Source of the DNA: an uncultured Bacteroidota bacterium
GTDB lineage: Bacteria; Bacteroidota; Bacteroidia; Flavobacteriales; Flavobacteriaceae
NCBI GenBank assembly: GCA_902518355.1
Contig: CABYFY010000004.1
Location: 1-64,000 of the forward strand
Direction of reading: 5' to 3'
DNA: 64,000 nt
Under the pieces are notes generated by a model that was not told the origin of the DNA, did no database searches, and was given only the letters and a program-made list of their open reading frames with translations. Each line of letters starts with the position of its first letter. The first letter of the stretch is position 1. Below, in pieces: positions 17,729 through 58,516 of the stretch. The translations under genes and the position numbers were made by a program.

Positions 17729-19939
17729 TTAGATATTATCAATAATTTCATTAAATGATTTAGATGGTCTCATTATTTGTTCAATTATAATATCATTAGT
17801 GTTGTAATAACCTCCCAGATTTACCTTGCTACCTTGAGCAGCATCAATCTCATTAATTATCTGACTCTCGTTATTTAAAAGTTTAGTATAAACTTCATCG
17901 AATTCATCTTTTAATACAATATTGTCTTCTTGTTTTGATAAATATTCAGCCCAATATAAAGCAAGGTAAAAATGACTACCTCTATTGTCAATTTCACCTA
18001 CTTTTCTGGACGGTGATTTTTCTTCTAATAGTAATTTTTCGATTGCTTTTGAAAGACATTCTGAAAGGGTTCTACATTTTAAATTTGTACTTCCAATATT
18101 TTCCAATGCAACAGATATTGCTAAAAACTCACCCAATGAATCCCATCTTAAATGGTTTTCTTTTAATAATTGTTGTACATGCTTTGGGGCTGATCCACCA
18201 GCACCTGTCTCAAAAAGCTTACCTCCGTTCATTAAAGGCACAATTGATAACATCTTAGCACTTGTTCCTAACTCTAAGATTGGAAATAAATCTGTTAGAT
18301 AGTCTCTTAGAACATTTCCTGATACTGAAATTACATCATTCCCTTTCTTGATTTTCTCAAGTGTAAATAAAGTTGCCTTGTAAGGAGATAGTATTTGAAT
18401 ATTCAAATCAGAAATATCATATTTTTTAAGTTCCTCCTTGACAACGCTTATAAGTTGTTTGTCATGAGATCTATCTTCGTCCAACCAAAACACTGTTGGG
18501 TAATTTGTAGATTTTGCTCTTTCAACTGCTAGTTTTACCCAGTCTTTTATAGCTTCATTTCTTACCAAACACATTCTCCAAATATCCCCTTTCATTACAT
18601 TGTGTGTAAATAAAACTTTACCGTCTTTGGTTTCAACACATACTTTTCCATCTTCCTTGATTTCGAAGGTTTTATCATGAGAACCATATTCTTCAGCCTT
18701 TTTAGCCATCAACCCAACATTTTGAACTGTTCCCATAACAGCAGGATCAAATTGCCCATTTTCTTTACAAAAATCTATTGTTGCCTGGTATATTGAAGAG
18801 TAGCTACTATCAGGAATTATTGCTTTAGTATCTCTTAATTCACCATTTTTATTCCACATCTTTCCGGAACTTTTTATCATTGCAGGCATTGAAGCATCTA
18901 TAATCACGTCACTTGGTATATGGAAATTTGTAATATTCTTTTCAGAATTTACCATAGCTAAGTCTGGACCATTTTCTATATCTAGTTCTATTTCATTAAC
19001 TAATTTTTCCTTCGTTGGTTTATCTAACTGATTTATTTTTTCAAATAAATTAGATAAACCACTATTAAAGTTTACGTTGATTTTATCAAGTGTAGTGCTA
19101 TTTTTTTCAATAAAATTTTTGAAAAAAACTTTTAAAACATGACCAAAAATTATTGGGTCACTTACTTTCATCATTGATGCTTTAAGATGAAGTGATAAAA
19201 GCATACTTTTTTCTTTGCAATCGCAGATCTCTTTTTCGATAAAATCTTGTAATTCTGAAATACTCATAAAACTACAATCAATGATAGCATTTTTATGAAT
19301 TGTTATGTTTTCTTTAAGAATGCTTTTTTTCTCGCTTTTATTGTAGTGATATATATTTAAAAGTTCGTGTCTATCACTTGTTAATGAAGTTTCATTATTT
19401 CTAAAATCTCCTTTATGCATAGATGCAACATGGGTTCTTGAATCTTTAGTCCATTCTCCTAATTTATGGGGATTGGACTTAATATAATTTTTTACAGCAT
19501 TTGGCACTCTTCTGTCAGAATTACCCTCTCTTAAGACAGGGTTAACAGCGCTTCCCTTTATTTTATCATATATTGATTTTATGATTAGGTCATTATCATT
19601 TTCTACTTTCTCTGGATAATTTGGAATATCAAAGCCTTGACTTTGTAGCTCGTTTATGGCTTTTTTAAGTTGGGGAATTGACGCACTAATATTAGGTAAT
19701 TTGATAATATTAGCATTAGGATCTTTAACAAGTTTTCCTAAAAATTCTAAATCATTTTCATATTTAATTTTACTTCCTAAAAAATCGTTAAAAGTTGCAA
19801 GAATTCTTGAGGAAAGTGATATATCTCTACTCTCAAATTTAACTCCTGATGATTTTGAAAATGATTTAATAATTGGTAGTAATGAGGCGGTAGCTAAAGC
19901 AGGTGCCTCATCGGTCTTAGTGTATATAATCTTCGACAT
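17729..19939 (-). CDS. icd: Isocitrate dehydrogenase (NADP+), monomeric type
   Basis: A 736-residue monomeric isocitrate dehydrogenase of the TCA cycle, converting isocitrate to 2-oxoglutarate, CO2 and NADPH. The length (about 740) and the start KIIYTKTDEAPALATASLLPI are specific for this family. Further conserved stretches are LREGNSDRRVPNAVKNY (substrate binding, about 137-153), VIDASMPAMIKSSGKMW and GGSAPKHVQQLLKENHLRWDSLGEF. It is the first gene of the icd-murQ-thrS-infC run and has its own -7 box upstream. Confidence 0.97.
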   Translation of the reverse strand: MSKIIYTKTDEAPALATASLLPIIKSFSKSSGVKFESRDISLSSRILATFNDFLGSKIKYENDLEFLGKLVKDPNANIIKLPNISASIPQLKKAINELQSQGFDIPNYPEKVENDNDLIIKSIYDKIKGSAVNPVLREGNSDRRVPNAVKNYIKSNPHKLGEWTKDSRTHVASMHKGDFRNNETSLTSDRHELLNIYHYNKSEKKSILKENITIHKNAIIDCSFMSISELQDFIEKEICDCKEKSMLLSLHLKASMMKVSDPIIFGHVLKVFFKNFIEKNSTTLDKINVNFNSGLSNLFEKINQLDKPTKEKLVNEIELDIENGPDLAMVNSEKNITNFHIPSDVIIDASMPAMIKSSGKMWNKNGELRDTKAIIPDSSYSSIYQATIDFCKENGQFDPAVMGTVQNVGLMAKKAEEYGSHDKTFEIKEDGKVCVETKDGKVLFTHNVMKGDIWRMCLVRNEAIKDWVKLAVERAKSTNYPTVFWLDEDRSHDKQLISVVKEELKKYDISDLNIQILSPYKATLFTLEKIKKGNDVISVSGNVLRDYLTDLFPILELGTSAKMLSIVPLMNGGKLFETGAGGSAPKHVQQLLKENHLRWDSLGEFLAISVALENIGSTNLKCRTLSECLSKAIEKLLLEEKSPSRKVGEIDNRGSHFYLALYWAEYLSKQEDNIVLKDEFDEVYTKLLNNESQIINEIDAAQGSKVNLGGYYNTNDIIIEQIMRPSKSFNEIIDNI

Positions 19940-19966
19940 TAGTAATCTTCTGAACAGTTAGTATTT

Positions 19967-19974
19967 CAAAGATA
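19967..19974 (-). promoter_or_regulatory. -7 box for icd
   Basis: The minus strand reads TATCTTTG, fitting TAnnTTTG, 27 bases upstream of the icd ATG. Confidence 0.5.
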
Positions 19975-20018
19975 AAAAATGAGTATAAAATATAAAGAAT
20001 TAATAACGAATAGTTATT

Positions 20019-20066
20019 AAAAAGCGAAAGCCGCACTAATAGTATTGCTACTGTTGTGCGGCTTTC
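20019..20066 (-). terminator. Intrinsic terminator of the putative RNA
   Basis: An 11-base-pair perfect stem (GAAAGCCGCAC/GTGCGGCTTTC) with an internal AGTA/TACT pairing in the loop. On the minus strand it is followed by GCTTTTT, which gives it direction; on the plus strand there is no T-run. Confidence 0.85.
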
Positions 20067-20545
20067 TAATATCGAATATGTTTGCTTTTCGTTTCCGAGT
20101 TGCTCTCTTCCGAGGAATTGAGCTAGCAGACATTTTCGCTATTGTTGGAGTCTTTCTTGTTACTCAGCTCCGAAGAGCTTTTCCCTTTTCTGACTCCTAA
20201 TTACTTACTTAACATCATCTCTTGCGATTTGATGTTCCTTTCGAGACTTTTATTTCGCTACAGGCTACTAATTTCACACTGTGTTACTTTAATCGCTTTT
20301 CAGGATTCTCCTTGGGGCTAGGCCCTTTTGGACTCCGTTGGGCTAGGCCTTCCGGAGAGAAAGTCTTTTACTTTAAAATTGTGCAGGCACACATTTTAAC
20401 GTTTAGTTTCTTTCTGTTTAGCCTAAAGTTTCCTTTTGGCTTGGTAAGTAATCTGTTAAAGAACGTCCTTGAATTTGTTTCACTTAAAAAGTGTTTTGTT
20501 TATCCTTTTGGGATCCACTACAAACAAATCCTGATACTAATTTAG
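20019..20545 (-). ncRNA. Putative large structured RNA of unknown class
   Basis: No convincing gene exists in the 694 bases between icd and rplS, but this stretch is visibly richer in G+C than its surroundings. On the minus strand it is purine-rich and folds into many hairpins. AGCTC-TTCG-GAGCT (20166-20179) sits inside a GGAGTC/GACTCC stem (20147-20152 with 20192-20197). Another hairpin has a GAAA tetraloop (20421-20440). GCTC/GAGC (20102-20123), AACATC/GATGTT (20211-20236), CACTT/AAGTG (20481-20493) and two tandem hairpins with a CTA loop (20309-20357) complete the list. It ends in an intrinsic terminator at 20019-20066. I looked for and did not find the conserved sequences of RNase P RNA, tmRNA or SRP RNA. 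The 5' end is uncertain; no perfect -7 box was found. Confidence 0.65.
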
Positions 20546-20634
20546 TATAATAGTTGACTTTTTACTCAAATTTTTAAAAAAAGAAATTCACCTGTTGTAA
20601 ACCAACAATATTAACAATTGTTAATAACCTAATC

Positions 20635-20985
20635 TTAATTTCTTTTCTCTTTAATTTTTGCTTTTTTACCTGTAAGATTTCTGAAATATAAAATACGTGC
20701 TCTTCTGACTTTACCTCTTTTATTAATCTCAATTTTTTGAATTGAAGGAGAATTAATAGGGAAAATTCTTTCAACGCCTATTGAACCAGACATTTTTCTA
20801 ATTGTAAAAGTTTCTGTTGAACCTGAGCCTCTTCTTTGCAAAACAACACCTTTAAAGAACTGTGTTCTTGTTTTATCACCCTCTCTAATTTCGTAATAAA
20901 CTGTGATTGTATCTCCTGAACTAAAAGAAGGTAGTTCTTTTTTTTCTACAAATTGTTCTTCAACAAATTTTACTAATGAGCTCAT
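20635..20985 (-). CDS. rplS: 50S ribosomal protein L19
   Basis: A 116-residue ribosomal protein located at the 30S-50S interface. MSSLVKFVEEQFV, SGDTITVYYEIREGDKTR, FKGVVLQRRG and TFTIRKMS match the family, and the C-terminus carries extra Lys/Arg residues. It follows trmD on the same strand, as in many bacteria, but a separate -7 box and leader lie between them. Confidence 0.97.
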   Translation of the reverse strand: MSSLVKFVEEQFVEKKELPSFSSGDTITVYYEIREGDKTRTQFFKGVVLQRRGSGSTETFTIRKMSGSIGVERIFPINSPSIQKIEINKRGKVRRARILYFRNLTGKKAKIKEKRN

Positions 20986-26360: not shown

Positions 26361-27788
26361 TTAAACAGAGAGTTTTTTACCTAAGTCTTCAACAAATTTT
26401 CTAAACTGCTTGTCTGTAGATGAAAGATTATCAACTGTTTTGCAAGCATGTAAAACAGTTGCATGATCTCTTTTTCCAATTTGTGAGCCAATACTAGCAA
26501 GGGATGCTTTAGTATATTTTTTAGCAAAAAACATTGCCAACTGTCTAGCTTGAACAATGTGTCTTTTTCTCGTTTTGGACTGTAAAGTAGGGATATCCAT
26601 TTGGAAATAATCAGAAACAATTTTTTGTATGTAGTCAATCGAAACTTCACGTTTTGTATTCTTGACGAACTTTTCTATTATTTCTTTAGCAAGGGATAAG
26701 TTAATTTCTTTTCTGTTGAATGATGCCTGTGCAATAAGTGATATAATTGCACCTTCTAATTCACGAACGTTACTCTTGATGTTTTTAGCAACATAATGAA
26801 TAACTTCTTCATTCATTTCGATTCCATCACGATACAATTTATTTTTTAAGATTGACACTCTTGTTTCAAAATCAGGTTTTTGCAATTCTGCAGAAAGACC
26901 CCATTTAAATCTTGAAAGTAATCTGAGTTCAATATCCTGCATATCAACAGGCGGTTTATCACTTGTAAGAACCACTTGTTTACCGTTTTGATGCAAGTGA
27001 TTAAATATGTGAAAGAATACATCCTGTGTTCCAGGCTTTCCAGAAAAGAACTGTATATCATCAATTATAAGTACATCAATAATTTGATAAAAATAAATGA
27101 AGTCATTTCTATTATTCTTTTTTACTGCCTCAATATATTGTTGAGTAAATTTTTCTGCAGTTGTATAAAGAACAGTTTTTTCTGGATATCTTTTTTTGAT
27201 ATCAATTCCAATGGCATTTGCTAAATGTGTTTTACCTAATCCAACACCACCGAATATTAAAAATGGATTAAATGAAGTTCCTCCAGGTTTATTAGCCACA
27301 GCGATACCTGCATTTCTAGCAAGCCTGTTTGAATCACCCTCAAGAAAATTTTCAAATGTGTAGTTAGGATTTAGTTGAGATTCAACTTTTACATTTTTGA
27401 TTCCAGGAATAACAAAAGGATTTTTTAATTCAGGAACTGACCTATTTATTGGTGTAGTAGCATTCTGTGTTAGAATCGATGAAGAATTAGAGCTTGGAAT
27501 TTTTTCAGTGAATGGTTGTGAGTTACCAAATGTATTTTCCATTTTAATGATGTATACAAGCTTTGCGTCATCGCCTAAAGTTTTTTGTAATGCAACTTTA
27601 AGAATTTTTACATAATGTTCTTCAAGCCATTCGTAAAAGAATTTGCTAGGGACTTCAATGCTAAGAACTTTGTCAGCTAACTTTATTGCTTTGATTGGTT
27701 CAAACCAAGTTTTGTAAGCTTGTGGTTGAATGTTGTCTTTAATAAACTTAAGACAGTCAGACCACACAGAATTAGCATTTACATTCAT
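26361..27788 (-). CDS. dnaA: Chromosomal replication initiator protein
   Basis: DnaA binds oriC and opens the duplex. The 475 residues contain domain I (WSDCLKFIKDNIQPQAYKTWFEPI), a variable linker, the AAA+ domain with GGVGLGKTHLANAIG (about 180-194) and VLIIDDIQFFSGK, and domain IV with the DnaA-box-binding signature KRDHATVLHACKTVDNL near the C-terminus. It is divergent from a thioesterase gene across an AT-rich spacer that may be oriC. Confidence 0.97.
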   Translation of the reverse strand: MNVNANSVWSDCLKFIKDNIQPQAYKTWFEPIKAIKLADKVLSIEVPSKFFYEWLEEHYVKILKVALQKTLGDDAKLVYIIKMENTFGNSQPFTEKIPSSNSSSILTQNATTPINRSVPELKNPFVIPGIKNVKVESQLNPNYTFENFLEGDSNRLARNAGIAVANKPGGTSFNPFLIFGGVGLGKTHLANAIGIDIKKRYPEKTVLYTTAEKFTQQYIEAVKKNNRNDFIYFYQIIDVLIIDDIQFFSGKPGTQDVFFHIFNHLHQNGKQVVLTSDKPPVDMQDIELRLLSRFKWGLSAELQKPDFETRVSILKNKLYRDGIEMNEEVIHYVAKNIKSNVRELEGAIISLIAQASFNRKEINLSLAKEIIEKFVKNTKREVSIDYIQKIVSDYFQMDIPTLQSKTRKRHIVQARQLAMFFAKKYTKASLASIGSQIGKRDHATVLHACKTVDNLSSTDKQFRKFVEDLGKKLSV

Positions 27789-58396: not shown

Positions 58397-58404
58397 TATA
58401 TTTG
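58397..58404 (+). promoter_or_regulatory. -7 box for the SRP RNA gene
   Basis: TATATTTG ends about four bases before the RNA stem begins. A degenerate -33 element (TTCTG) may lie at 58376-58380. Confidence 0.65.
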
Positions 58405-58407
58405 AAA

Positions 58408-58506
58408 TGGCAAGTCCTACACAACTAGCTCCTGATTAATCCTCCAGGGTGGGAACACAGCAAAGGTATTCGGTTGTAGCAGTGTGATGTAGATAGCTTG
58501 CCATTT
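58408..58506 (+). ncRNA. ffs: Signal recognition particle 4.5S RNA
   Basis: A roughly 98-base hairpin RNA that binds Ffh for co-translational targeting. The ends pair as TGGCAAG/CTTGCCA. The tip holds the SRP domain IV signature: CAGG on the 5' side of the asymmetric loop, a GTG/CAC stem, a GGAA tetraloop and AGCA on the 3' side (58445-58461 region). Its own -7 box lies just upstream, and an SDR gene follows about ten bases later. Confidence 0.92.
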
Positions 58507-58516
58507 TTGTATCATT

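Follow-up and report, generated by a model that had tools for sequence, protein, structure and literature searches.

The 64,000-nucleotide stretch of DNA analysed here (the window), from an uncultured member of the Flavobacteriaceae, contains in the spacer between rplS and icd what is almost certainly a real structured RNA. It covers positions 20018-20532 of the minus strand (about 515 nt), as delimited by its fold, an alignment within the genus and the support for its base pairs. We consider it likely that this large structured RNA of the Flavobacteriaceae has a stand-alone gene in the spacer, and that it most likely serves as a folded scaffold in trans. Comparison of sequences points to a conserved and covarying structure with promoter and terminator motifs, independent of both neighboring genes. 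The RNA has no known relative in Rfam 15, the catalogue searched, and it is in this sense that the family is new.

Both neighbors are encoded on the minus strand. The upstream gene, rplS (ribosomal protein L19; 20635-20985), was named from its sequence and by an earlier note on this DNA; the downstream gene (17729-19939, 736 aa) we take to be icd, for a monomeric isocitrate dehydrogenase, the name given in the same note. The note had described a gene-free, [G + C]-rich spacer holding a large structured RNA on the minus strand. Its coordinates and strand proved correct, with the 5' end probably at about 20532-20534 rather than at 20545; judged from the motifs, the transcript probably spans 20534 to about 20015. 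The minus strand of the element is indeed free of open reading frames of 40 aa or more, the longest with an ATG start having 38 aa. On the plus strand, mechanically called reading frames of 51, 59 and 107 aa run across the element, all started by TTG; the longest (20222-20545), antisense to the RNA, is probably due to chance. The GC content of the element is 39.0%, compared to 29.7% for the window, and only 10 of 2540 sliding windows of 515 bases are as GC-rich, which bears out the reported island. The minus strand folds with -150.9 kcal/mol (z -6.15), a value equaled by none of 100 shuffled sequences. The plus strand folds equally strongly (z -6.26), and folding energy alone can therefore not identify the strand; this choice is based on the promoter, the U-tract and, in other genera, the G-U pairs.

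The predicted structure can be followed along the minus strand. Helix P1 is formed by GGATTTGTTT (20522-20531) and AAACAAATTC (20471-20480), a pairing that was also tested in other genera, and between its arms lie the hairpins P2 (ATCC...GGAT, 20502-20514) and P3 (CACTT...AAGTG, 20481-20493). The hairpin AAGGACGUUCUUU with its ACGUU loop (20458-20470) is the motif that is easiest to recognize in other genera. The alignment within the genus supports a long-range helix P4 between GATTACTTAC (20444-20453) and GTAAGTAATT (20199-20208), as well as hairpin P5 with its GAAA (20420-20442). Within P6, the hairpin AATGTGTGCCTGCACAATTTT (20375-20395) has a core, GTGTGCCTGCACAATT, that is identical in all 16 sequences of the genus. 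A variable domain contains the first of two GGCCTAGCC hairpins (20341-20349), which is missing from two divergent relatives; the second is located at 20316-20324. Hairpin P10, CATCAAATCGCAAGAGATGATG (20213-20234), shows covariation. There is comparative support for P11 (GGAGTC/GACTCC, 20147-20197), for P13 (AATAGCGAAAATGTCTGC...GCAAACATATTCGATATT, 20068-20143), which contains two inner hairpins, and for an intrinsic terminator at 20018-20066, consisting of GAAAGCCGCAC...GTGCGGCTTTC with a U-tract and the apical hairpin GUAGCAAUAC. Three hairpins singled out by the note are thus present and comparatively supported: the UUCG hairpin (20166-20179) inside GGAGUC/GACUCC (20192-20197 with 20147-20152), the GAAA hairpin, and the terminator with its arms at 20056-20066 and 20026-20036.

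In a blastn search of 60 genomes the element was located in 16, namely the window's own and 15 of its 20 congeners, and in none of 39 of other genera. A covariance model of the 5' domain (R1, 88 positions) retrieved the same 16 of the 21 genus genomes. The five genus genomes without the element are 57-68% complete; four have no match to rplS and the fifth only one of 44% identity, so that its absence is explained by a missing contig. In the genus the RNA measures 416-518 nt. The alignment of the 16 sequences has 101 predicted pairs, of which 31 remain paired although both partners have changed. In the 3' half, changes on both sides were counted in 35 cells, compared to 12.5 in shuffled alignments and 2-11 when the structure was slid; of five measures, four never reached the observed value in 500 shuffles, and the fifth did so 9 times. 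The G-U and A-C counts in this genus alignment (A3; 20 and 21, respectively) are uninformative on the strand.

Applied to 397 genomes of the family at a threshold of 0.001, R1 gave three matches, all in congeners and none in another genus. The picture of a genus-only RNA, drawn from blastn and R1, was overturned when synteny revealed relatives. In other genera, too, a long spacer free of genes separates rplS from icd downstream. Collecting these spacers from related flavobacteria, as had been proposed in the note, brought out an RNA of the same layout between rplS and icd in many genera. The shared motifs include a palindromic stretch carrying GTTNATA boxes, a promoter, the CGUU-loop hairpin, the long-range helix, a GUGUA.GCA hairpin, P11, P13 and a AAAGCCAT...ATGGCTTT terminator. 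In many of these loci the CGUU-loop hairpin reads AUAAAG-UAACGUU-CUUUAU, and in most loci having the hairpin the loop ending in CGUU is conserved while the stem varies. Among 112 rplS loci examined, icd lies downstream in 83 and a terminator-ended spacer is present in 77. These loci are a non-random set (27 from an initial survey, the 25 best rplS matches and 60 picked by hand) that includes nine from other families, none with the RNA, an rplS that looks foreign (L067) and, for one genome, an additional match (L068). A terminator rule was used to pick the 77 RNA-like spacers, a few of which may be misjudged. In 40 of the 77 loci (12 shuffles each) the median fold z was -5.2, and in 39 loci the RNA measures about 430-570 nt, with a median of 512. 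In nine further rplS-icd loci the spacer measures 107-400 nt and lacks such an RNA. For the genus g146, which is probably Flavobacterium, the one spacer inspected (L140/L196, genome G169) is 287 nt long and contains neither boxes nor the RNA, which we read as loss or relocation.

Covariation was analyzed in an alignment of 47 of the 77 spacers (500-600 nt), 45 of which were used for alignment A4 and 35 for A5. The consensus structure of the 47 sequences has 130 pairs. Against a phylogeny-aware null, in which the inferred substitutions were scattered on a FastTree tree in 30 simulations, 19 of the 130 pairs were significant at E<0.05, a test that is easier than one over all column pairs and uses a structure derived from the same alignment; the guard is given by the slid structures (-3 to +3), which had 0, 0, 1, 0, 0 and 0 significant pairs. 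Of the 20 best-covarying column pairs among approximately 154,000, 16 belong to the structure, and in the test over all pairs a single column pair reached E<0.05 (208-225, a pair of the structure). In A4, which covers P11-P13 in 45 sequences, none of 500 shuffles reached the observed value on any of the five measures, and 145 cells with changes on both sides were found, compared to 17-34 when slid. Both anchors of P1 were found in 42 of the 77 loci, and in 38 of these its arms pair better with their own partner than with swapped ones (z -10.5). The pairing cells of A4 contain 104 G-U as opposed to 12 A-C combinations, which fixes the strand there and argues for an RNA. Conservation and covariation in relatives, on which the note had made its RNA claim depend, are thus both present (19 of 130 pairs as opposed to 0-1 when slid; 0 of 500 shuffles). 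Together with the promoter and terminator motifs, the recurrence in many genera and the absence of a match in Rfam, these results uphold the large structured RNA it had proposed.

A second model, R2, covers P11-P13 and was built from 45 other genera. It matched 123 of the 397 family genomes, in 81 of 237 genera, with one match per genome (its filters lose some weak matches). The remaining 274 gave no match, and among the g146 genomes listed there was none either; with the nine rplS-icd spacers that are devoid of the RNA, this implies that the RNA is not essential family-wide. A locus with a long spacer that nevertheless failed the terminator rule (L085) was matched by R2 only at E 0.045. In a draw from the order and one from the phylum, R2 matched 10 of 395 and 4 of 395 genomes, respectively, all within the same family, and the RNA is likely limited to the Flavobacteriaceae. 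An exact 21-base motif of P11 was found in at least 118 stretches of GTDB genomes, and R2 confirmed each locus in a set of 27 carrying the motif. Carriers among the matches listed include Gelidibacter, Olleya, Algibacter, Lacinutrix, Psychroserpens, Winogradskyella, Tamlana, Seonamhaeicola, Bizionia and Mariniflexile. Among the 118 stretches listed, 105 have rplS upstream and 90 have icd downstream; both are present in 79. Of the 39 listed stretches that do not show both, 29 end before the missing neighbor could appear, and R2 confirms 8 of the 10 with room for it. L283 was discarded as a carrier, being a chance match of the 21-base pattern, and L287, at the start of a contig, has an R2 E-value of 0.074. 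Contigs titled Chlorobiota (L204) and Bacteroidia (L241, L251) also carry the RNA, with R2 scores of 86-121 bits; these are possibly misbinned Flavobacteriaceae contigs. A mobile element was rejected as an explanation: searches of phage and plasmid records gave no match to the RNA, one exact motif of the other-genera RNA was absent from IMG/VR, and there is one match per genome.

The homology between the RNA of the window and those of the other genera is supported by position, by layout and, weakly, by model scores. At 0.001, R2 has no match in the window's own genome (G000). Locus L133 bridges both models (R2 8.5e-5, R1 0.09), inside the spacer and on the right strand, and L126 is matched by R1 at E 0.031, again inside the spacer and on the right strand. 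L133 was also the only strong R2 match among 25 loci used for this bridging test, the other 24 showing weak matches on either strand. A sequence-only profile without base pairs (R3) gave five matches in the 25 loci, with E-values of 0.037-0.67, all inside the spacer and on the right strand; two of the five are from the genus of the window.

The Bacteroidota promoter consensus is TTTG-N19-TAnnTTTG. Directly upstream of the RNA, the window has a promoter-like motif, TTTG-N22-TAAATTAG (20537-20570, minus strand), and motifs of the form TTTG/TTG-N17-22-TAnnTTnG follow rplS in 46 of 77 loci, compared to 4.6 in shuffled copies. Further upstream, RNA-bearing loci in other genera (L042-L155) contain GTTNATA/TATNAAC boxes ahead of the RNA promoter, spaced by 11, 13 and 11 bp in genome G174. 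Of 77 loci with the RNA, 49 have at least three GTTNATA boxes after rplS; none of 10 loci with icd and no RNA has so many, nor has any of 25 with neither. Their counterpart in the window is the palindrome TTAACAATTGTTAATA (20609-20624, minus strand), which is conserved in the genus. The window itself has only two exact GTTNATA boxes here, a count that is also reached at several sites elsewhere in it. The boxes are likely the site of a regulator, with a weak signal in the window; they may be sites for DnaA or for another regulator.

The location of the RNA raises the question whether it belongs to one of its neighbors. As a long 5' leader of icd, a riboswitch or attenuator ending in a regulated terminator, it would lie on the same strand with the terminator shortly before icd, as it does: the distance is at most 300 nt in 62 of 77 loci and larger in 11 (icd is absent from the locus in four), and in G174 the RNA adjoins icd while rplS is found on another contig. 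However, icd has a TAnnTT(T/C)G box of its own within 140 nt in 71 of 73 loci, compared to 9.1 in shuffled copies; in the window this is TATCTTTG (TAnnTTTG; 19967-19974, minus strand), downstream of the terminator. Moreover, a leader would always have icd next in the same transcript, whereas several loci have other genes in this place: eight have an intervening gene of about 190-213 aa, L114 and L143 a next gene of opposite orientation, and L242 a TonB-receptor-like gene. We therefore regard an icd leader as very unlikely. The intervening gene, found between RNA and icd in 8 of 11 loci (L045, L091, L113, L125, L131, L136, L138 and L142), reads like one for a pentapeptide-repeat protein, and a similar gene comes after the RNA in L090. 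Alternatively, the RNA could derive from the rplS operon mRNA, as its 3' UTR or a processed tail. This would agree with the presence of rplS upstream in all 38 R2 loci inspected and in 105 of 118 motif loci among the matches listed, but is less probable still, as the RNA has its own promoter motif, the other-genera spacers inspected have a separate rplS terminator before the RNA, an opposite-strand gene lies between the two in L195, and rplS is not beside the RNA in L194. In G139, too, an opposite-strand gene parts rplS from the RNA, and here, as in G174, the GTTNATA boxes remain with the RNA. Where rplS or icd is no longer adjacent, promoter and boxes are still found with the RNA. We therefore reject both an icd leader and an rplS tail, and the unit in other genera consists of boxes, promoter, RNA and terminator.

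The two other explanations concern the nature of the element. A chromosomal replication origin, with the hairpins as part of it, is suggested by dnaA at 26889-27374 (minus strand), 6 kb from the RNA, by distances of 9-14 kb between dnaA and rplS in several complete genomes, and by the DnaA-box-like GTTNATA repeats upstream in other genera. In G201, G213 and G064, however, dnaA and rplS are hundreds of kb apart. The skew minimum of G201 lies at approximately 2.4 Mb and the RNA at 3.37 Mb, the skew of G213 switches at about 1.0-1.2 Mb and the RNA is at 2.2 Mb (20 sampled stretches each, noisy for G213), and the third-position skew of the window has no switch at 20 kb. With the G-U pairs pointing to an RNA, we rejected the origin, which is the least probable of the alternatives, on the GC skew of the two complete genomes and the window. 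An ordinary regulated trans-acting sRNA, base-pairing through the CGUU or another loop as a seed, is the most serious rival, although we judge it unlikely. It would account for a CGUU-ending loop that is conserved while its stem varies and for the regulator-like boxes upstream, and it has a precedent in Flavobacterium in Rfp18, a structured sRNA that affects protease mRNAs according to the portions of the study consulted (PMC9723704). On the other hand, about 515 nt and a dozen conserved helices exceed what a seed needs, and the same source puts the median of the independent Rfp transcripts at 176 bp (PMC9723704).

We favor, as probable, an RNA that is the product of its own gene and acts in trans. 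RNA polymerase would start at the Bacteroidota-type promoter just before P1, a regulator would probably bind the GTTNATA boxes upstream, as the dedicated boxes suggest regulation, and the intrinsic terminator would end the RNA. At its 5' end the folded product would have P1-P3 arranged as a three-way domain; next would come the CGUU-loop hairpin and a large domain of several helices, which the long-range helix P4 closes, and P11 and P13 would make up the 3' domain. Transcription, control through the boxes, action in trans and the scaffold role are what we infer from these elements. In trans, the RNA might combine with protein into a particle, or assemble with RNA only, through its conserved loops. 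Its size, closed multi-domain architecture, single copy and conserved loop would be expected of a scaffold more than of an sRNA that pairs through a seed, and from size and structure a scaffold role appears most likely. In the loops listed that end in CGUU the preceding base is a purine (several loci have no such hairpin in the list); at a guess, self-pairing of RCGU in the loop could allow RNA dimers.

New large structured RNA families are rare in bacteria, and several known ones were recognized as ribozymes, as particle cores or as RNA assemblies that had not been expected. More tentatively, and with some doubt on our part, the present RNA could be a widespread uncatalogued RNA that forms its own particle, with protein or with itself via the CGUU loop, under a dedicated regulator reading GTTNATA, rather than a riboswitch, a seed-pairing sRNA or a known housekeeping RNA. 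If so, it would represent a new functional class of bacterial RNA. Named genera with isolates carry the RNA (Lacinutrix, Winogradskyella, Algibacter, Olleya, Tamlana and Gelidibacter, among others), and the fixed locus, the consensus structure and the existence of genera that naturally have no such RNA make deletion, pull-down and structural work directly possible.

Known RNA families were compared through all families of Rfam 15, as the note had proposed, and no known family was found in the element. The element had no match at the gathering threshold, and at E<=5 the region 19940-20640 had two matches, both far below their thresholds. Similarly, 18 rplS loci, 14 of them of this family, and eight loci searched at E<=0.5 had nothing above threshold in the RNA. 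In the whole window, two matches reached the gathering level, a small SRP RNA of the Bacteroidales type (58401-58507, plus strand, 99.8 bits) and one tRNA, and ARAGORN reported no tmRNA in the window. The sole RNase P RNA match (RF00010) in the genome of the window is G000:C4:130991-131291 (183 bits), and tmRNA (RF00023) has one match above cut-off, at G000:C2:1231-1620. The note had seen no signature of RNase P RNA, tmRNA, SRP or 6S RNA in the element; the first three indeed lie at other sites, and 6S RNA was not located. In the open literature, titles and abstract openings yielded no description of the RNA, with most subscription journals outside the scope. The strings 'Flavobacteri' and 'Bacteroid' do not occur in the main text of a 50-genome study (PMC11109978), and the portions consulted of a Red Sea study name no such RNA (PMC5069720).

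RNase P RNA, tmRNA and small SRP RNA resemble the new RNA as independent structured RNA genes, the first two also in size, but sit elsewhere and show no match to it. The L19-Flavobacteria ribosomal leader (RF03130) is an RNA element that relatives have at the same gene, rplS; it is, however, a leader of 29 positions before rplS, whereas the new RNA comes after the gene, and the two do not match. The Rfp RNAs of Flavobacterium psychrophilum, whose transcriptome has 85 new independent RNAs including Rfp18, are likewise structured noncoding RNAs of the Flavobacteriaceae outside Rfam, as far as the consulted text of the paper goes (PMC9723704). The independent Rfp transcripts are short (median 176 bp), and that text gives no position for Rfp18; a single Rfp could still be identical with the RNA described here. 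Also among the close parallels are OLE, GOLLD and ROOL, whose models are presumably counted among the Rfam 15 families and gave no covariance-model match to the element. Although these occur in other taxa and in another gene context, and the present RNA is known here from sequence alone, all are noncoding RNAs that are large, stand alone and have an elaborate structure in which long-range helices are combined with loops that are conserved.
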